From the NCBI GenBank assembly GCA_964036665.1, contig OZ038529.1, forward strand, positions 3,100,001 to 3,164,000: a stretch of DNA of 64,000 bases. The letters are read 5' to 3'. The stretch comes from Gordius sp. MW1 (Eukaryota; Nematomorpha; Gordioida; Gordea; Gordiidae). The notes under the pieces are model-generated. The model saw only the letters and a list, made by a program, of their open reading frames with translations. It ran no database searches and had not been told where the DNA came from. The position numbers were made by a program, and so were the translations under genes. Position 1 is the stretch's first letter. Every line of letters begins with the position of its first letter. Below, piece after piece: positions 30,501 through 63,140 of this stretch.

Positions 30501-30638
30501 TGTAGCCCCACTAATATAATTAATTATATATTTAAAGTTTTTTAATGTTGGGTAATTTTTAGGCTCTAAATTTATAACATTTTTTTATCTGTTTGCATAT
30601 AGTTTTTAACTTTTTGTTATTGTTGCAATTAATTTTAG
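27516..30638. other. 3.1 kb AT-rich intergenic region
   Basis: No exon, repeat family copy or RNA gene can be supported. The 3' UTR and polyadenylation signals of the upstream gene (several AATAAA within 300 bp of 27515) and the promoter and 5' non-coding exon of the SLC12A9-like gene must lie here. Confidence 0.5.
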
Positions 30639-30640
30639 TC

Positions 30641-30649
30641 ATGAGATGA
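30641..30649 (+). promoter_or_regulatory. Minimal upstream ORF overlapping the SLC12A9 start
   Basis: ATGAGATGA is a two-codon reading frame whose stop overlaps the ATG of the main frame (30646). A TTTTAG just before it (30633-30638) looks like a splice acceptor, so the 5' UTR is probably spliced here and this would be the first AUG close to the start codon. Confidence 0.4.
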
Positions 30650-33600
30650 ATGAGAACACTTTGAATAATTTACCAAATACTTCTACACCAACAATGGCCA
30701 CTAACATAGAACCTTTTTATGAAACTCAAAATCATGAATCTGAAAATATTTCATTTAAGTCATTAGGCAAATCATCATCAACAAAATGGTTTGGGGCCAC
30801 TTCAGATTCACCTTATCCACCTTTTTGCCGCAAATTAAATGGTGACCAAAGTCCGTTGGTTGAAAATATTGTTATTGATCCTAATGCAACTCAAACTTCT
30901 GTAAATGCAAAGGTTATTTCCCTTACCTCTTTAAAAACGTCAGAAAAAGGATTGTCACCTGAAGCATCCTTGAGTGGAAATTCAGATACATCAGGGATGG
31001 TGACAAAACGTAAACTTCTATCAACAATTTCTGGGGTATTTGCCCCAGTTGCTCTCTCAATGTTCAGTGTATTACTATTTCTACGTCTTGGGTTTGTTGT
31101 GGGTCATGCTGGACTTGCATTTACATTTGTCATCTACTTACTCACTTACTTCATCCTTTTAACCACTGTAAGATATTTGAACATTTTATTCTACTTAAAT
31201 TTAATATTTTGATGTCTTAAGCTTGGCCATAAGACATAAACTCATTGTAGCTAATTTCATTTAATTATTCTATAAACTAATTTATTGATTATTTTTAAAT
31301 AATAAGTTTAATTTGAGTAAAGTATTTTATTAATTATAATGCTAAGTTAATATGCTTGTTAGCTTTTTATTTGGAAAGATGGTAAAGTAAATTTATAATG
31401 TAATTTTATTTTTTACAGAATTATATTATAATTCATGTCATAATATAATATTATCATAAAATCATATTTTAAATGGATAACAGTATTATATAGATAACCA
31501 AGTCATAATTTCTAATAGCTAACTGTAAAATTCTTTTTACCTTTTTCTCAAATGGTAACCTATGACCTACATTGTTAAAATCGAATTCCTCATAGCTGCG
31601 AAATTAAATACAAACGATAAAAATAAAAAGGCAATAATTTAATTGATCCTCTAGGTATTATCCGTAGCGGCGGTAGCCACGAACGGGGCGGTCGAAGGTG
31701 GGGGTGCCTACTTTATGATAAGCCGCACCCTAGGGCCCGAATTTGGGGGCGGAATCGGGGCGGTTTTTTTCGCGGCAAACGTCTTCAGCAGCGCCCTATA
31801 CACCGTGGGGTGCGCCGAAGCTTTGCTCGAAAGTTTTGGCCCGGGGGGTACTTACACCTCCGACTCTTCACCCTCAGGATCCAGCCCCGCCCACTTACCA
31901 GAAGGTCCGGGTTACGCCCTCTTGTACGCCACCGCGGTCAACGCCCTCAATTTGATCATATGCCTGAGCGGTAGTTCCGTCTTCGCCCGAGCCTCGCTCG
32001 CCGTTCTCACCGTCGTGGTGGGGTGCGCCGCCTCCGTACCCCTCAGTCTAATCCTACGCCCTACCCCCTGGTGCGTGCCCCTTCCCTCGAATAACGTGCT
32101 CGCCCATCCCCCACCTTCCCCTTTCTTACCCCCCAACGCTTCAACCCCGATCCCCATGATCTACGTTCCACCACCGTGCGGCAATTACACGGGTTTTAAC
32201 TGGGCCACCCTGACCCTCAACTTGGGGGCGGAGTACGGGCGGGATTATATGACGGGCTCGCCCGTCACCTTTATGACCGTGTTCGGGGTCGTATTTTCGG
32301 GCGCGACTGGTATCATGGCGGGTGCCAATATGTCGGGCGATTTAAAAAATCCGCAATCTTCCATTCCACGAGGAACGCTGCTCGCGGTCGCTTTCACCTT
32401 CGCCATTTACCTCGTCCTCTCCTTCCTAGTAGCTGGCTCCTCGAGTCGTTACCTCCTGCAAAACGATTACATTTTCCTAGCCCAAATTAACGTTTGGGCC
32501 CCCTTCGTTACGGTCGGTATACTCCTAGCTACCATAACCGCTGGACTCAGCAATCTCATGGGTATATTGTTCTTGCAGCTTTTTCGTTTGTTTGCACTAG
32601 AATGCCTTCGGGGTAGTGTTGCGAAAAAGGCTGGATTTTGTTGGGGTAACCTTGGGCTAAAACTTAGATTAAAGGTCGACTCAGGTCTGTTTTTCAAGTT
32701 TGGACAAAGCCAAGAGGTCAACTAAGAAATACAGACCAAGAAGCCTTTGACCACAAGGCAGCCAAACAAAACCCAGCCATTTTTACAACAGTACTTAAAA
32801 GAGACGGTTTAGTAGAAATGATCTGTTAATCTATTTTTTCTAAGGGTTGGTAGCGAAGGGTTTAATCGCCATTCAACTTGTTGGGGGGGCCCTAATTAAT
32901 ATAATCTTACTTTAAGACTGTGTTTAAAAGTGAGCTTTTTTACGTATGGGGCTGGAACTACGTTGGAGTACCATATGAGTGAGTGTATTTGCCGAATCAG
33001 ACCGTAGGGGCAGCTTTGTGATTAACTTCAAGCGAAAAATAAGATCGTGTGGCTTTATTTACATCAACGAACGCGTTATTCAGATCAGATCCATGAGACT
33101 TGGCTCTTTCTTATATTCACATAGACTTTTAATATAGAGATGGGCGAACAGCTGATGAATATGAGTAAGGGTGTAGTCCACCATGTTAAAAAAGTAAGGC
33201 ATGCTGAATTTAAACATTTACCTTCAAGATAATATCAACTAACAAATGCCCTTTACAAAAAACGTATGTTTGATGATTGTTTCTTTTGAAAGTGGAAATA
33301 TAGGTAAAATTGTGTACACCATCTTAATGGCATATTATTGAAACTTACTTAAAATGGCCGACAGAGTTGCTTAATAAACTTCAAAGCAAAAAACAGCTTT
33401 TCGCTAGTCAATAGTCTTAGTCTATGATTTAAGGCAATAAATATTAAATAACGATATGGGCGTAGCCGGGGGGGGGGCAGCGAGGGTCGGCTGCCCCCCT
33501 CTAAATCCAAAAATTTGTTGAAATTTATTAAAATTATGGCTAAAATTTCAAAAAAAGATCATTTAGCCCCTCCCTAAATCATTATTGTCCCCCCTTCTAA

Positions 33601-36600
33601 TTCCAATGCTGGCTACGCCCATGACCGACATTAATGAATCAAATCACCAGGAGCTTCTCGTGTATTGGAGGCCGTGGCTCGCGACCGAATTTTTGGGTCG
33701 GTCTTGAACCGTTTGACCTGGACTACTAAATCGGGTAACCCCATCCCGGCCGTTTTGGTATCTTGGCTCCTCGTTCAAGCCGTGATCACCATGGGTTCCC
33801 TCAACCGTATTGCGGGTGTGACCACCGTATTTTTCCTACTATCCTACCTCGCCATCAACGTTTCTTGCTGTGCCCTGGAACTGGCTTCGGCCCCAAATTT
33901 TAGGCCCTCCTTCAAGTATGTTTTCTCCACCCACGCTCATGGACATGCGGCCCACATTTATGCTTTTGAACAGCGTTTTAAAAACGGTTGGGTTTTGTTC
34001 GGTCACCCTTTGGTTTAACCAACACCAACGGTCGACTCTGGTCAGTTTTTAAAATTTCGACTAAGCCTAGGGTTCGACTAAGAAAAACAAACCAAAATAC
34101 CTTTCGTCTGTTTATGTTTAGTCGACTAACACCGAATGTCGACCAAAAAACCCGGAGCCGTTATTACAACACTACTTTTGAAATAGCTTCTATTCCGTTA
34201 TTTAAGGGTTGTTTCTTAGGAATCAGGGCTAGGTATAGGCAGATATGGTAAAAGGTTAGAGAACATCTCAAGATTGAGGAAATGAGAATGTAGCCCTTAA
34301 AATTATGATTTAAAACTGACAAGCTACTGAGCGACAATGCAAATAAAAGTTTCTATAATTTGTTGTAAAATGGAATCTAACAAATTTCTTGAGGCACTTA
34401 ATAAATTAATATTATAATTATGGATATTTAGATTAAAAAATTTGCTATAAATATATATGATTTTGCCATAAGTCACTTATGAACCGAAGCAATAAATTAA
34501 CTACATAATAATGCAGACGATAATTCTAACCTACGATATATTTTACTCCCCTCAGATATTTTACCTGGTACACCGCCCTCTCGGGTTCCCTAGCCTGTTT
34601 GTTCATGATGTTCGTGGTAACGCCCACTTTCTCCACCCTCGGACTGGTTATATGCGCCGCCCTCGTCCTGACCCTACACTGGAAAACGCCCGCCGCCTCC
34701 TGGGGCTCCCTCAGTCAAGCCCTTCTCTTCCACCAGGTACGGAAGTATTTGTTGCTCTTGGACCCGAGGAAAGAACACGTCAAATATTGGCGGCCTCAAA
34801 TACTACAATTGGTCGCCGATCCTCGAACTTGTTGCGAACTCATCGATTTCGCCAACGATCTCAAGAAGAGCGGCCTTTTCGTGGTCGGGCACGTTAGCCT
34901 CAGGCGCCCCACCCTTTCCGTGGGTAAGCTCCAATCGCATGTGTCTTGGTTTGTACCAACCAATCGCTTGCGTCTTTTGGATTTTTTTTCACCAATCGCG
35001 ACTGTCTTCTGGTTTGTTTCCACCAATCGCGTGCGTCTTATGGGTTTTTTTTCCACCAAACGCATTCGCTCGGGTTTAGGATGACGTTTTTTTGTTTTAC
35101 CCTTTTGTCGGTTCTCAAAACTCAATTGATAAATTTTTGCTTTTAAAATTGAAAGTTTGATTAATAAAATACCTTATAATTTAAGAAAAAATTGTTTTAA
35201 CCGTTTGTTATAAACTTGTAAGTGTATTTTTTATGTTGTATTAGAGATTTCTTGTATTCAGGTGTGCGTTTGGATAATGATGCCATAACCACCTGTTTCT
35301 AAATAATTTAAATACATTAGTTCATTTTCGAGATTTTAAGTCTAATTAATTTTGCCTTATAACTTAACATATAGCTAAAATCTTAATTGTCTTATCCTTA
35401 TTTTATTTTGGACAATGAATACCCTGCATTTTTTGATGCAATTATTGAAAGTAGTATATAACATTGCTTGCATTTGTAATTTCAGCGTCCGATCAAAAAT
35501 CTCCGGGGAATATTATGTCGGAAAACACCGATACGATAGCCGCCGAGCTGCCTTATTGGCTGGCTCTGATGGATAGTTTGAAGGTTAAAGCATTCGTTGA
35601 ATTGACTAGCAGCGAGAGCATCCGTGAAGGGTGTAGTCAATTGATGAGACTTTCGGGTCTGGGAGCCATGAAACCAAATACCATTATATTAGGTTTTTAA
35701 CATGATTGCTTTTTTCGATTCTATTCATGTTTTCATCTTTCTGAGTAAAGCTTTAATATCTCTGCAATTTTAACTTGGAATTTCAACTGTGGTCTAATTT
35801 TAGCTCAGTCGCTTATTCAAGTCATGAAAATAATTTAACTTTTGCTTTACTTATGAAAATATTGGAGTGAATCCTAAACGCCGTGTTTTTTTATTTACTC
35901 CACTGGTCATGCTGAATTATTATAGACTCGGATGACAACAATGTTGTCAAAACTTTTAACTGTTTTGTATTATTAATATTCAAGCTTTAACACTTAAATC
36001 TCTGCATTAATTTTAATTCAAACGTCCCAAAATTTTCTTAACGGCAATTATCCTCATAATCGCGCAGGTTTTTTGGACGATCGGGCTCCCAAAGATAGCT
36101 TCTTATCCAAGCCTCAACTCTTCAGAAATCGCCGACCGAGGGGCATAGAGGTGCCCGGTGCAAATCCCGACCCCACGCCTCAATCGACCCCAAAAAACTG
36201 GCCACCCTTAGATCCCTGGTGGTGGTCGTCACGCCCTTCCCGGACCCTAGCGAGACCGCTTACGCCCTCACCTTCGACCCCTAACCTCATTCCTGACACC
36301 ATTGGGGGTGAGGATTCTGTTTTCATCCCCTCAGAGGACCTTTCCCACATCGGACCATCCCTGAGGCTGGGCCCGCTCGAGTACATTGGTATACTGCGAG
36401 ACGCATTAGCCATGAACAAAAATCTTGTTTTGGCCCGCAATTTTTCGGACTTGGATAAGCGAACCCTTCTATTCCCCCCTCCTCCACCCTCAACCCCTTC
36501 TTCTGTGGGGGGTAGGAAGAGGCCGACCGGAGGGCCCCGTTGTTACATAGACGTTTGGTTGCAAGATTTTTTTCAACCCGCCCAGCCGCCGACCTACGAT

Positions 36601-37143
36601 AGCCCAGCCACCCTGTTCCTCCTGCAATTGGCTTGCGTCCTTAACATGGTACGCGCTTGGAATGGGCGCTCTGCCCTTCGCGTTTTTATCTGCCTCGACC
36701 CTCAACTCCAAGACCCCGCCCTCCACGAGGCTCACCTTAAATCTCTCCTCGCCCAGCTCCGTATACCCGCCCAAGTCCACGTCGTAGAATGGAACGTGCG
36801 ACGCCATTTTTTCCCTCACCCCCCTCAGTCTCAGGACGGGGCAGCCTCCCTCCACGATCTGACCCCCTCAGCTTTTCTGGATTATCTGGGGTACGCGAAT
36901 CGTCTCGTAGCCAAGTACTCGCCCCCCAAAGGGGCGGGCTCTACCAATTTGGGCGGTGCCGCCTCATCTCACAACTTCATCCCTACGGCCGTATTGTTTG
37001 CCTACCTTCCGCCCCCACCCCCAGCAGACGCGATTGAGGGTGAGGCGGGGGCATTTTTAGCCCAACTCGAAATTTTGACTCGCAACTTACCGCCCACTTG
37101 TATGGTACACGGGATTAGCACCGTCACTACCACCATGCTTTAA
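30646..37143 (+). CDS. SLC12A9: SLC12A9-like cation-chloride cotransporter-family protein
   Basis: Polytopic membrane transporter of the SLC12 family, most like the SLC12A9 (CIP1/CCC6) branch. Exons 30646-31167, 31655-32561, 33651-33915, 34556-34923, 35486-35692 and 36068-37143 join in phase to 1114 aa, longer than the roughly 914-aa human protein, mainly through an extended Ser/Thr-rich N-terminus. Diagnostic stretches: [20 protein letters not shown] (TM1), [60 protein letters not shown], then the cytosolic tail with [29 protein letters not shown] and [22 protein letters not shown] sits in the large extracellular loop as a likely glycosylation site. The tail contains a long Pro-rich linker (36130-36300) and ends at TAA 37141-37143. 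Exon 1 is AT-rich; exons 2-6 prefer C-ending codons. Transport substrate is not predictable; human SLC12A9 is mainly known as a modulator of other family members. Confidence 0.95.
32615..32792. mobile_element. MITE family A, copy in SLC12A9 intron 2
   Basis: AGTGTTGCGAAAAAGGCTGG to CCATTTTTACAACAGT, starting 53 bp after the donor at 32562. Confidence 0.75.
33454..33623. mobile_element. MITE family B, copy in SLC12A9 intron 2
   Basis: ATATGGGCGTAGCCGGGGG to GCTGGCTACGCCCATG. Its end lies only 27 bp before the exon at 33651, so the branch point of that intron is probably inside or at the edge of the element. Confidence 0.85.
33973..34173. mobile_element. MITE family A, copy in SLC12A9 intron 3
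   Basis: AGCGTTTTAAAAACGGTTGG to GCCGTTATTACAACACT, beginning about 57 bp after the donor at 33916. Open frames extending from exon 3 into it are readthrough artefacts. Confidence 0.75.
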
Positions 37144-43644: not shown

Positions 43645-43649
43645 ATATC
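43645..43649 (+). repeat. 5-bp target site duplication, left
   Basis: ATATC directly precedes the TG end of the palindromic LTR insertion and recurs directly after its right end at 44670-44674. Confidence 0.8.
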
Positions 43650-44669
43650 TGTGGTGTTCAACCTAAACCCCCCCCCACACATACTTACACTTATACCCTA
43701 CTATTTTTATAGTTATCCAATTTAATTATGGCAAATTTATTTTATGACTGATGAGTCATCGTTGTTACCACGAGTTGGTACCACTTCGCTTTTTATTACC
43801 TATCTCGAGCGAGCGAATTTAATTACTTCGCGTTAGTTAGTGTTATTGCACAATCATCATTATTCATTAATTTTAATTCCTCATTCTCGTTTTTCATATA
43901 TATATTTGTGTTTCGCCTAGTTGAATAAAAAATATACTTTTGGAAGACTAATTAATTTTAAAAAGATAATTGTCCTCCCTTTTTGGGGGAGGACCGAAAT
44001 TCTAATAATTCATTAACTTATGGGATTCCTTAATTGGAGCTATCCTTTAGAAAATATTATTCTCCGTTTAAATAAATAAATTAGTTGTCTGAGCCAAGAT
44101 AAGGCTCAGACTTATACAAAATATTGGCGCCGGAAAGGTGGAATCGAACCACTTCGCCGTTAAGCGACTACAGGTTACAAGCCTGCACCCCAAATATTTT
44201 GTATAAGTCTGAGCCTTATCTTGGCTCAGACAACTAATTTATTTATTTAAACGGAGAATAATATTTTCTAAAGGATAACTCCAATTAAGGAATCCCATAA
44301 GTTAATGAATTATTAGAATTTCGGTCCTCCCCCAAAAAGGGAGGACAATTATCTTTCTAAAATTAATTAGTCTTCCAAAAGTATATTTTTTATTCAACTA
44401 GGCGAAACACAAATATATATATGAAAAACGAGAATGAGGAATTAAAATTAATGAATAATGATGATTGTGCAATAACACTAACTAACGCGAAGTAATTAAA
44501 TTCGCTCGCTCGAGATAGGTAATAAAAAGCGAAGTGGTACCATCTCGTGGTAACAACGATAACTCATCAGTCATAAAATAAATTTGCCATAATTAAATTG
44601 GATAACTATAAAAATCGTAGGGTATAAGTGTAAGTATGTGTGGGGGGGGGGTTTAGGTTGAACACCACA
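43650..44669. mobile_element. Palindromic LTR / tRNA / inverted LTR insertion
   Basis: Two arms of about 475 bp (43650-44125 and 44193-44669) are inverted copies of each other, with five base differences and one poly-C length difference. Both outer ends read TGTGGTGTTCAACC going inward, and ATATC is duplicated exactly at both borders. TG...CA outer ends plus a 5-bp duplication are hallmarks of retroviral-type integrase, so each arm is read as an LTR (probable extent TG at 43650 to CA at 44118). The inner edge of the left arm is followed by TGGCGCCGG, a typical primer-binding site. The centre is tRNA-derived (44125-44191). No gag or pol is present. The arm contains AATAAA-type signals. The whole looks like an abnormal reverse-transcription product inserted in trans. 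Confidence 0.85.
44125..44191 (-). tRNA. 5'-truncated selenocysteine-tRNA copy with CCA tail (pseudo)
   Basis: On the minus strand the segment begins GGGGTGCAGG, equal to the 3' D-stem side and anticodon stem of animal tRNA-Sec. It continues with anticodon loop CTTGTAA, a long variable arm (TCGC paired with GCGA), T-arm GTGG-TTCGATT-CCAC, the 9-base acceptor strand CTTTCCGGC, discriminator G and CCA. The 4-bp T-stem with 9-bp acceptor is specific to tRNA-Sec. About the first 20 nt are missing, so it cannot be functional. The encoded CCA shows it derives from a mature tRNA or its primer-binding complement. The anticodon would be TGT, not TCA. Confidence 0.8.
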
Positions 44670-44674
44670 ATATC
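44670..44674 (+). repeat. 5-bp target site duplication, right
   Basis: ATATC, the exact partner of 43645-43649, flanking the palindromic LTR insertion. Confidence 0.8.
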
Positions 44675-59884: not shown

Positions 59885-60109
59885 AAAAGGTATTTTAGGA
59901 ATCTGAAAAAGCTATTTTACCCCTGGCCGCCCTGGTCATCTACGGCCTAATTTTCACGTGAATCGGGCCGGTAGTTTCAGAATTTAGCCCTTTTTTAAAA
60001 CTAAAAGGAATTTTAGGATTCTGCAAAAGCTATTTTACCCCTGGGCGCCCTGGGAACCTACGGGTAAAGTTTCGCGCGAATCGGGCCGGTAGATTCAGAA
60101 TTTAGCCCT
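59885..60109 (+). repeat. Tandem duplication of about 115 bp
   Basis: Two successive units share TTTTAGGAATCTG / TTTTAGGATTCTG, AAAAGCTATTTTACCCCTGG, CGCCCTGG, GCGAATCGGGCCGGTAG and TTCAGAATTTAGCCCTT. They lie directly upstream of the microsatellite and are GC-richer than their surroundings. Confidence 0.75.
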
Positions 60110-60116
60110 TATCCAC

Positions 60117-61102
60117 ATGCATACATACATACATACATACATACATACATACATACATACATACATACATACATACATACATACATACATACATACATAC
60201 ATACATACATACATACATACATACATACATACATACATACATACATACATACATACATACATACATACATACATACATACATACATACATACATACATAC
60301 ATACATACATACATACATACATACATACATACATACATACATACATACATACATACATACATACATACATACATACATACATACATACATACATACATAC
60401 ATACATACATACATACATACATACATACATACATACATACATACATACATACATACATACATACATACATACATACATACATACATACATACATACATAC
60501 ATACATACATACATACATACATACATACATACATACATACATACATACATACATACATACATACATACATACATACATACATACATACATACATACATAC
60601 ATACATACATACATACATACATACATACATACATACATACATACATACATACATACATACATACATACATACATACATACATACATACATACATACATAC
60701 ATACATACATACATACATACATACATACATACATACATACATACATACATACATACATACATACATACATACATACATACATACATACATACATACATAC
60801 ATACATACATACATACATACATACATACATACATACATACATACATACATACATACATACATACATACATACATACATACATACATACATACATACATAC
60901 ATACATACATACATACATACATACATACATACATACATACATTCATACATACATATATACATACATACATACATACATACATACATACATACATACATAC
61001 ATACATACATACATACATACATACATACATACATACATACATACATACATACATACATACATACATACATACATACATACATACATACATACATACATAC
61101 AC
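60117..61102. repeat. (CATA)n microsatellite, about 985 bp
   Basis: About 246 tandem copies of the tetranucleotide, broken only by a small variant patch near 60940-60958 (CATTCATAC and CATATATAC). Because CATA contains no stop in any reading, long artificial open frames (HTYI on plus, MYVC on minus) span it; they are not genes. Confidence 0.98.
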
Positions 61103-63140
61103 TTTACTTTATATATATAGATTAACCGTTTTTATATTATATATCTATTTTGTTTCAAACTTCAAATAAAATTTAACAATATAAAAACATGTTCTAATTA
61201 CATGTTACTAAATTGTATAGGGTTACTAACCAATTAATACAAATATCAGTTTCTATAGTAGGGCATATTAAAAAAAAAATCATTAAATATTTAAAGCTAT
61301 CCTGTCTGCCACAACATGCAGAAATAGTTCAAATAATAAAAGATTTTAAACTTTAGAATAACTTAATTAGGAGTTTATTTATATTTAACTTAAATGCTTA
61401 TTTGTGGCTGGGACTATTAGTAGCATGGACAAAAATTAGTAGCCCCCTTATATCTTTGACATAATTCTTATCGATTTTTTTTAAAGAATTTATAGCATTT
61501 TTTTTATTATGTTATAGAAACCACAAAGGTGCGTATGGATACTTCTCGTCATTATTCATAGCATAAGTAATCAGTTGCCCACATTACAAAGTTTTAATTA
61601 AATTATTAAAAGTAGCATTGTTACTAGATTAATAACATAAAAATTTTGGGTGTAATAAATTGCACTAATATAACTACTCACAAATATCTTTACATTCAAA
61701 AATAAACCATTCTATTATAGTGTAAAACCATATTATATAATGTCCCAAAATATATAATTTTACAAATTAACTAGCCACAAGATATATATTAACTAATAAA
61801 GCTTAGGCTTTTTTTTGCAAGATCGTAACATTTACAGAAATTTTAAGAGATTAGAATGCACCTACCAACCCCACAATCATTTTGTAAAGGAAATGTAATT
61901 GGCAAAATAAATGCATAATGTGATTTTTAGCTTGAGAATTTCAGATGTGTGCCATGATGATTTCAATCATAAATCTTGGCAGACTCACGATTGAACTCAA
62001 ATCAAAAGTTTGGCAGGCACAGAAATCGCAGGGAGTTCAAAAAATCCTTGGCCAAATCTATTTAATGTTTTAATAATTAAAAATATCATCACATAAAACA
62101 GAATGATGTAACTGTTGCGAAATTTATAGATGTTTTAGTAATAATACTACTTCAACAGAACTCACGTTTGTATGTCATAATGAGAAAGATAAGGATAATT
62201 AATCTTTATTAAATAGTAGGGCCAGGGAGGGGGCATATTAACGAATAAAACAAATTTAAGATAAAAGAATTAATATAAGTAAAACATATGGTTTTTACCA
62301 ACTCGGCTTTGGCTTATAAAATTAAAATATTTAATTATAGCAATAATATAATCTGTAGAAAATAATATACTAATAAAAGTTATAATAAATTAAACTATTT
62401 TTCTTTCACTTATTCACATATAATAATGTTCATATTATATAAATGCTCTGGATATAAATATGTAATATATAATTAAAGAAATATTTTTAACAACCTTAAG
62501 GGATAAATGCAAATTTTACGCAGATATATATTTAATATTGATTAAACTTGTTGTGTAAAATTTTCAATATTAAAGGAATCCCAATTATATTAATTTACAT
62601 TGAACATCCGAAATGTAAATTATACAAAATAGAAATTTAAATTAATTTAGCATATATGATTATGATGGCCAACAAAGAGAATATTAAGTCGAGATCTCGT
62701 CTAGAAAATCTCGTCTCATCTCAAATTCAATATTCTAGTCTCAATCTCGACTCAATTTTTCAAATTCTCGTCTCGTCTCCTTTCGGTTTTCGAGATGAGA
62801 CCAAGATCAAGGACCATATAAAGATACGAACTAATTCATAAACTATGGAAAATGCAATTTAAAAAAATCCATAAATAAGTTCGAAGTGTAGAAAATTAAA
62901 TTTTAGAGTTCTAGCAAATTATAATATGTGTATGAAATTCACTGTGTCTGTCAAATTTAAATAGACTCAGAAATTTATAACTCCTATATTTGACTTAGTT
63001 ATATAATTGAACAAATTAGAACCCTTTATTAACCCTGGCTAAAGCCTCAAAGTAGACCTCAACATACTGACAAACCGTTTAGTCCATTGATATTAACATC
63101 ATGAATTATAGCCCCAGAGAGGTTATTGCAAATTTATTAG
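61103..63140. other. AT-rich region without genes
   Basis: No supported exon. It holds a TCTCG-type repeat at 62685-62805 and, near 61855-61920, a short sequence (GCACCTACCAACCCCA) related to the duplicated unit at 63.1-63.9 kb. Confidence 0.4.
62685..62805. repeat. TCTCG-iterated repeat, copy 2
   Basis: GAGATCTCGTCTAG, TCTCGTCTCATCTC and TCTCGTCTCGTCTCC with weak symmetry around the centre; the same motif type as 58480-58625. Confidence 0.5.

Follow-up and report, generated by a model that had tools for sequence, protein, structure and literature searches.

Inverted LTRs around an apparent primer tRNA-Sec copy in a Gordius genome, probably an integrated by-product of reverse transcription

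Introduction

How can a single insertion come to hold one long terminal repeat (LTR) twice, in opposite orientations, with the copy of a tRNA between the two? This question is raised by a locus in the genome of Gordius sp. MW1 (211.8 Mb, 12 contigs), which lies in the window, i.e., the whole stretch of 64,000 nucleotides that was analysed (C3:3100001-3164000). In principle, both aberrant ends of cDNA and LTR circles made by end-joining are known, and the junctions of retroviral 2-LTR circles can retain bases of the primer tRNA. An initial annotation of the window had interpreted the locus as the product of an LTR retrotransposon, in which a strand copied into the primer tRNA had folded or switched back through a second LTR. 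Here, we examine this interpretation by direct reading of the locus and by searches of the whole genome.

Results and Discussion

Layout of the palindrome

Direct reading and a repeat search place the palindrome at positions 43650-44669, where the same LTR is present in both orientations (Table 1). The repeat search returned arms of 461 nt that are 99% complementary, together with an outer block of 27 nt and a gap of 67 nt between the arms. The LTR recognised by the initial annotation was recovered as such, but not its length of 469 bp: the LTR measures 472 bp (left) and 473 bp (right) when its 3' end is placed by the target-site duplication (TSD) of an ordinary element, L092, which in our reading has CATTG on both sides. 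At the junction with the right arm, the A complements the T opposite tRNA residue A76, and ATA complements the TAT spacer of the left arm. Since the LTRs are inverted and the interior is absent, the insertion is an aberrant product, neither a standard LTR element nor a solo LTR. Its junction is of the U5-U5 type, unlike the U5-U3 junction of a 2-LTR circle or of end-joined cDNA.

Table 1. Features of the palindromic insertion, with positions in the window
Feature	Position	Strand	Remark
Left target-site duplication ATATC	43645..43649	.	Direct reading
Left arm, F1 LTR (U3-R-U5), TGTGGTG...ACAAAA	43650..44121	+	472 bp; end set by the duplication of L092
Spacer TAT (3 nt) from LTR to tRNA copy	44122..44124	+	Spacer shared by ordinary elements
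tRNA-Sec copy, 3'-terminal 68 nt including CCA	44125..44192	-	tRNA orientation along the - strand
Junction side of the second arm, A + ATA	44193..44196	-	Direct reading
Right arm, same LTR inverted	44197..44669	-	473 bp; direct reading, repeat search and arm alignment
Right target-site duplication ATATC	44670..44674	.	Direct reading

Both outer ends of the palindrome read TGTGGTGTTCAACC, and the 5-bp duplication at its borders is exact, as had been noted before. A short TSD of fixed length directly at the LTR termini is a hallmark of integrase-type insertion, and duplications of 5 bp were also read by us at L092, L065, L043, L067 and L074, among which are ordinary elements of three families. 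The duplication and the two U3 ends thus argue for insertion by integrase in the window, in line with the earlier assignment of both outer ends as U3 ends. Assemblers are able to make palindromes and the structure is seen in the assembly sequence, so that a false palindrome has to be considered; we regard it as extremely unlikely, as the flanks are not mirrored, the arms end at the LTR boundary, the centre is asymmetric and the TSD is exact, while each arm has mutations of its own and relatives with other LTRs are found at other loci.

Two further features were observed in the window. Exons resembling a putative SLC12-type cation-chloride cotransporter gene, according to our reading of the translations, lie at 30610-37143. 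About 1 kb of tetranucleotide-type repeat occupies 60068-61169, with several reading frames open along its length, on either strand, and with TYIHTYIH and CMYVCMYV translations; a similar array also adjoins another palindrome, L038.

The LTR family F1

A genome search for the LTR, as the initial annotation had proposed, returned homologues elsewhere, among them direct-repeat elements and a 7.3-kb relative with reverse transcriptase (RT) and protease. At least 43 matches belong to this family, F1, including the two arms of the window and two short pieces (40 of 246 candidates scored), and several of them pair up about 1.45 kb apart. The element L092 is a complete direct-repeat F1 element of 1.92 kb with the TSD CATTG. 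Behind its LTR come TAT and the primer site TGGCGCCGGAAA; some 28 nt further on lies AATCGAACCACT, which is likewise complementary to tRNA-Sec. The primer site is complementary to the 3' end of tRNA-Sec including CCA, and in canonical F1 elements it lies at the same distance from the LTR as in the window. Searching the genome with TGGCGCCGGAAA gave 78 matches, long tRNA copies included, while the reversed control gave 2. The polypurine tract of F1, AAAGGGGGAGG, precedes TGTGG. In F1, LTRs in direct orientation thus enclose an interior that has both a primer site and a polypurine tract.

The 7.3-kb stretch bounded by F1 LTRs (C5:10659874-10667203) contains RVT_1 at 92.5 bits and the aspartyl protease RVP at 23 bits (cut-off 20.7), the RT being of the gypsy type. 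The two best matches of this RT among solved structures are 4ol8, named only RT/RNase H, and 7q5b, the Ty3 Gag-Pol. Among the best 120 matches, the relatives with names are 39-51% identical and come mostly from diverse animals, with one bacterial MAG. Peptidase_A17, as found in BEL/Pao, has 107 hits genome-wide and none in the 7.3-kb F1 element. Judged by these sequence features, F1 appears to be an LTR retrotransposon family of the Ty3/gypsy type. The claim that the palindrome stems from an LTR retrotransposon is thereby upheld over that of a DNA foldback element or MITE independent of reverse transcription. The chance of the latter is practically negligible: inverted repeats and a short target duplication would suit such an element, but the same LTR also flanks, in direct orientation, elements that have a primer site, a polypurine tract and a 5-bp TSD, it bounds an element with a gypsy-type RT, and a tRNA copy with CCA is present.

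Changes around the primer site were seen in several elements. In the 7.3-kb stretch, the gypsy-type F1 element L091 (C5:10660300-10666800) has a primer site that now resembles that of a second tRNA, with the old tRNA-Sec site about 58 nt downstream; a tRNA copy inserted here would account for this apparent primer switch. In L064, L070 and L071, the primer site is followed by tandem arrays with a unit of about 21 nt (AATCGAACCACTTACTAAAAC), each repeating a tRNA-Sec-complementary stretch.

The tRNA-Sec copy at the centre

The central sequence matches the genome's own tRNA-Sec gene at 66 of 68 nt. Both mismatches sit in the anticodon loop (CTTCAAA to CTTGTAA) and are private to the window copy, since a 20-base pattern spanning the two was found once in the genome at ≤1 mismatch. 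ARAGORN called no tRNA in the window, where the central copy is incomplete, and the Rfam tRNA-Sec model gave it 33.2 bits, under the gathering score of 47. The gene itself (L040, C1:17842328-17842413) scores 78.9 bits with the ARAGORN anticodon TCA. Its 3' end is adjoined by GCGAG and not by CCA; as the gene encodes no CCA, the CCA-bearing copies beside LTRs derive from the mature tRNA. Four matches in the genome exceed the Rfam tRNA-Sec score, namely the gene and three LTR-joined copies (L032, L038, L034). The initial annotation had recognised a copy of the primer tRNA without naming it; the agreement over 66 of 68 nt plus CCA identifies it as a copy of tRNA-Sec. The LTR-fused, CCA-bearing copies would further imply that tRNA-Sec is used as a primer in the cell.

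One of these copies, L032 (C6:10713865), is a full-length tRNA-Sec copy with CCA on an LTR end. As its 78.9 bits equal the score of the gene and ARAGORN calls it tRNA-SeC, it could be annotated as a second tRNA-Sec gene.

tRNA-Sec copies across the genome

Searching the genome for 25 bases from the 3' end of tRNA-Sec gave 56 matches (≤2 mismatches), and the control gave 0. Copy length was measured ungapped in 59 distinct sequences, the gene included, and then with gaps over 77 overlapping loci. Copies of at least 50 nt were found at 27 sites, with the gene excluded and the tandem pair L037 taken as one; 24 of these came from the ungapped measurement and exact core patterns, and L054, L056 and L057 from the gapped search, and a further long match, C1:19349520, stands outside all counts. 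Behind copies of up to 39 nt, the same interior often follows at more than one locus (L062/L098; L064/L070; L067/L074), and many short copies are therefore ordinary extended primer sites. The copies of 37 nt in L101 and L102 (C8:23702104 and C8:26892926) have a mismatch in common and nearly the same following sequence, and because of this sharing they may represent either a junction that was copied or the primer site of another family.

An LTR or LTR end was recognised beside the CCA end at 22 of the 27 long-copy sites, the LTRs of L048 and L051 each being supported by the other only and the reference LTR for each of L046, L051 and L055 being taken from the locus itself. No LTR was recognised at the CCA end of the other five (L053, L056, L057, L058, L059). 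An inverted LTR follows the long copy at nine of the 27 sites. It is of the same family in five (L031, i.e., the window, L038, L039, L045, L055) and of another family in four: L035, where the left arm is short only, L036, where the joint runs through a second tRNA, L041 and L052, with L041 and L036 assigned by comparison with L112. A direct LTR follows in four of the 27 (L037, L046, L047, L049), an antisense polypurine tract in one (L051) and the interior of an element in one (L043). No partner class was recognised for the remaining 12 long copies (L032, L033, L034, L044, L048, L050, L053, L054, L056, L057, L058, L059); in L032 and L050 an inverted LTR-like stretch of 81-82% begins 5-90 nt beyond the copy and was left out of the inverted count. 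Shorter copies are also inverted at three sites, with mixed families in L060 and L075 and the same family in L080. The window palindrome is thus not alone: together with it, the inverted tRNA-Sec cases number at least 12.

Two sites with other partners are of interest for themselves. L046 (C5:9094896) is made up of LTR, a tRNA copy of 62 nt and LTR in direct orientation without interior, and with its U5-tRNA-U3 junction it resembles an integrated 2-LTR junction. In L051 (C3:239243), the tRNA-Sec copy is fused exactly to the antisense polypurine tract known beside F1 LTRs, as if synthesis had switched over to the terminus of the RNA that primes the plus strand.

The position at which the copies end inside the tRNA is not evenly distributed under the test applied. 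Ends fall at 59-62 nt, on the 5' side of the anticodon stem, in 10 of 24 sites (p 0.0013 in a scan test that takes ends to be uniform over 50-90 and sites to be independent; the later three sites, at 54, 63 and 72, are outside the test), and none of the fetched copies ends at 40-49 nt (77 overlapping loci, gapped). The T-loop position m1A58, usually methylated in tRNA, is passed by read-through, with a mismatch at the expected position in 0 of the 28 copies covering it. An explanation by modified bases specific to tRNA-Sec, a weakly modified tRNA, was dropped despite these 0 of 28 mismatches, since the second tRNA behaves alike.

Other palindromes and a second primer tRNA

The second primer is, judging from its sequence, probably tRNA-Leu(CAA). 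A 26-base piece of it has 108 matches, genes and copies pooled, of which L112, L113 and one inside L036 were examined. Two palindromes with this tRNA, L112 and L113, were picked for inverted matches within about 100 bp. By our reading, L113 unites two copies of the second tRNA of about 43 and 28 nt, and in L036 the tRNA-Sec copy is joined to the different, second tRNA ending in CCA. Such joints bear on the formation of the palindromes: mixed families and the unequal tRNA copies of L113 need two separate ends, and therefore point away from a strand that had folded or switched back on itself.

Complete LTRs on both sides with no interior recognised beyond them are found in four palindromes (the window, L079, L082, L052), and the window copy is the one of the four with an exact TSD. 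In L079 the duplication amounts to 4 of 5 bases at best, and only if the right LTR starts 9 bp further out; a TSD was sought and not found in L082, L052, L046 and L080. As the other three complete palindromes are without exact TSD, it is the window copy alone that documents insertion by integrase, and no general rule is shown. In L080, an LTR-interior-LTR element is joined to an inverted arm that terminates within the primer site, as would an intermediate preceding the second strand transfer. L063 was considered as the expected precursor, i.e., a solo LTR joined through the tRNA to an inverted element, and was rejected, its far end not being a clean U3.

Divergence of the arms

The arms of the window differ by five substitutions and one base in a run of C over 476 aligned columns, in agreement with the identity of about 99% given earlier. 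In a comparison with 28 other F1 copies, four of the six differences are private to one arm, one is the length of the C run and one is common to one other copy. Differences private to one arm also make up 2 of 2 in L082, 5 of 5 in L063 (three other copies compared) and 14 of 15 in L079 (seven other copies compared). The few, mostly private differences in the window fit one fairly recent insertion, as had been proposed. The private changes of L079 (C5:10319535) are unevenly placed, 12 in the right arm and two in the left, an imbalance contrary to equal ageing of both arms.

These patterns indicate that the arms of same-family palindromes were nearly or fully identical at birth, which means one source or near-identical sources: either a strand copied itself, or like RNAs in one particle gave rise to two cDNAs. 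The two arms of the window did not prove to be closest to each other: the copies L002 and L003 are comparably near, differing from the arms by 3-4 substitutions that are mostly the private ones of the arms. Since L002 and L003 differ by so little, two near-identical sources are possible for the window. Independent origins of the two arms, either as a solo LTR beside an inverted solo LTR or by rearrangement of a normal element after insertion, are in turn very unlikely; solo LTRs and nested insertions are frequent in genomes, as textbooks state, but here a single TSD encloses the whole structure, the arms abut the tRNA copy exactly at its ends, and most differences between the arms are private to a single arm in the comparison with the 28 other copies.

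Proposed origin

We conclude that the window palindrome is probably an integrated aberrant reverse-transcription product of the tRNA-Sec-primed, Ty3/gypsy-type family F1, formed by U5-U5 joining and inserted U3-U3. As read from the sequence, one U5 end was extended by the 68-nt copy of the mature tRNA-Sec. The extended U5 would then have been joined head-to-head to a second U5, whose tRNA had presumably been trimmed to one residue already, at a junction where clear microhomology is absent. The joint could have been made by end-joining or by a switch of the reverse transcriptase to the terminus of a second plus strand, which would probably derive from the particle's other RNA genome. Integrase would have inserted the product by its two free U3 ends, for which the U3 ends and the 5-bp duplication are the footprint. 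The arms may have been LTR-only from the start, or full elements that shrank by LTR-LTR recombination; shrinkage from inverted full elements is possible, as L080 and L055 suggest.

The joining of two U5 ends, in the particle or in the nucleus, is preferred because it covers both the same-family and the mixed-family cases. Snap-back, in which a tRNA-extended plus strand folds or switches onto its own LTR and copies itself, the hairpin then being made double-stranded and inserted, is close to the course proposed by the initial annotation, and we consider it unlikely without dismissing what speaks for it. The near-identical arms of same-family palindromes (window, L082, L063, L079) are more simply predicted by self-copying, which counts against two-end joining, and in L079 the junction falls within the acceptor stem, a place at which the full tRNA, copied into DNA, could prime itself. 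Self-copying is to this extent allowed by the arms; the mixed-family joints and unequal tRNA copies point instead to two ends. Snap-back alone gives neither joints of different families (L035, L036, L041, L052, L060, L075) nor the pair of unequal lengths in L113, and with L002 and L003 nearly identical to the arms, identity at birth needs no single molecule. Moreover, the DNA fold predicted for the window is not unusual (z -0.94) and leaves CCCCA, at the 3' end of the tRNA copy, unpaired, and a hairpin offers one free end, while the TSD requires two U3 ends.

Beyond the window, several LTR families and two primers may repeatedly give rise to U5-U5 joining as a by-product, with U3-U3 products usable by integrase. 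Palindromes of same and mixed families would then reflect particles with two like or unlike RNA genomes, and the tRNA copies, whose ends favour the position immediately 5' of the anticodon loop, would record how far the plus strand extends into tRNA-Sec. We offer this wider reading tentatively, as quite possible but somewhat less likely than not.

Relation to known systems

The window palindrome shares with 2-LTR circle junctions the joining of unprocessed cDNA ends and the remnants of primer tRNA, but it is U5-U5 and inverted, its tRNA copy is 68 nt long, and it is chromosomal with a TSD; L046, with direct orientation, is closer to such junctions. Mules, Uzun and Gabriel reportedly described Ty1 'replication intermediates with untidy ends' in 1998, and the likeness, judged by the title alone, lies in aberrant cDNA ends. 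Circular MLV DNA with an inverted segment, reportedly described by Shoemaker in 1980, and autointegration likewise involve retroviral cDNA rearranged with inversion. Autointegration, however, places to our knowledge no tRNA copy between LTRs, unlike the window. The proposal that strong-stop DNA with primer tRNA is the origin of tRNA-derived SINEs, attributed to Ohshima and Okada, has a counterpart here in chromosomal tRNA-U5 DNA such as the full tRNA-Sec copy of L032, although we saw no sign here of any copy having become a SINE.

Yeast Ty3, according to an excerpt of PMC5371799, has a bipartite primer site with boxes about 4.8 kb apart and is primed by initiator tRNA-Met. F1 is similar in that its 12-nt primer site is accompanied, some 28 nt further on, by another box complementary to the tRNA, AATCGAACCACT, and the RT of its 7.3-kb relative matches the Ty3 Gag-Pol entry 7q5b. 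It differs from Ty3, as far as that excerpt goes, in its primer, tRNA-Sec, and in the closeness of its boxes. A literature search in which subscription journals were thinly covered showed, among the papers listed, no chromosomal LTR-tRNA-inverted LTR with TSD across families and primers, and none on tRNA-Sec as a retrotransposon primer; this is only a weak indication that precedents are lacking.

Conclusions

LTR ends have brought the sequence of a primer tRNA into the chromosome, well beyond the extent of an ordinary primer site, and an insertion through two U3 ends has apparently succeeded. The set of copies constitutes natural data on the stops of plus strands within tRNA, on the sharing of particles by unlike elements and on joined ends as substrates of integrase. 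It also supplies real tRNA-plus-U5 DNA of the kind once reportedly proposed as the seed of tRNA-derived SINEs. The use of tRNA-Sec as a primer would add further interest.
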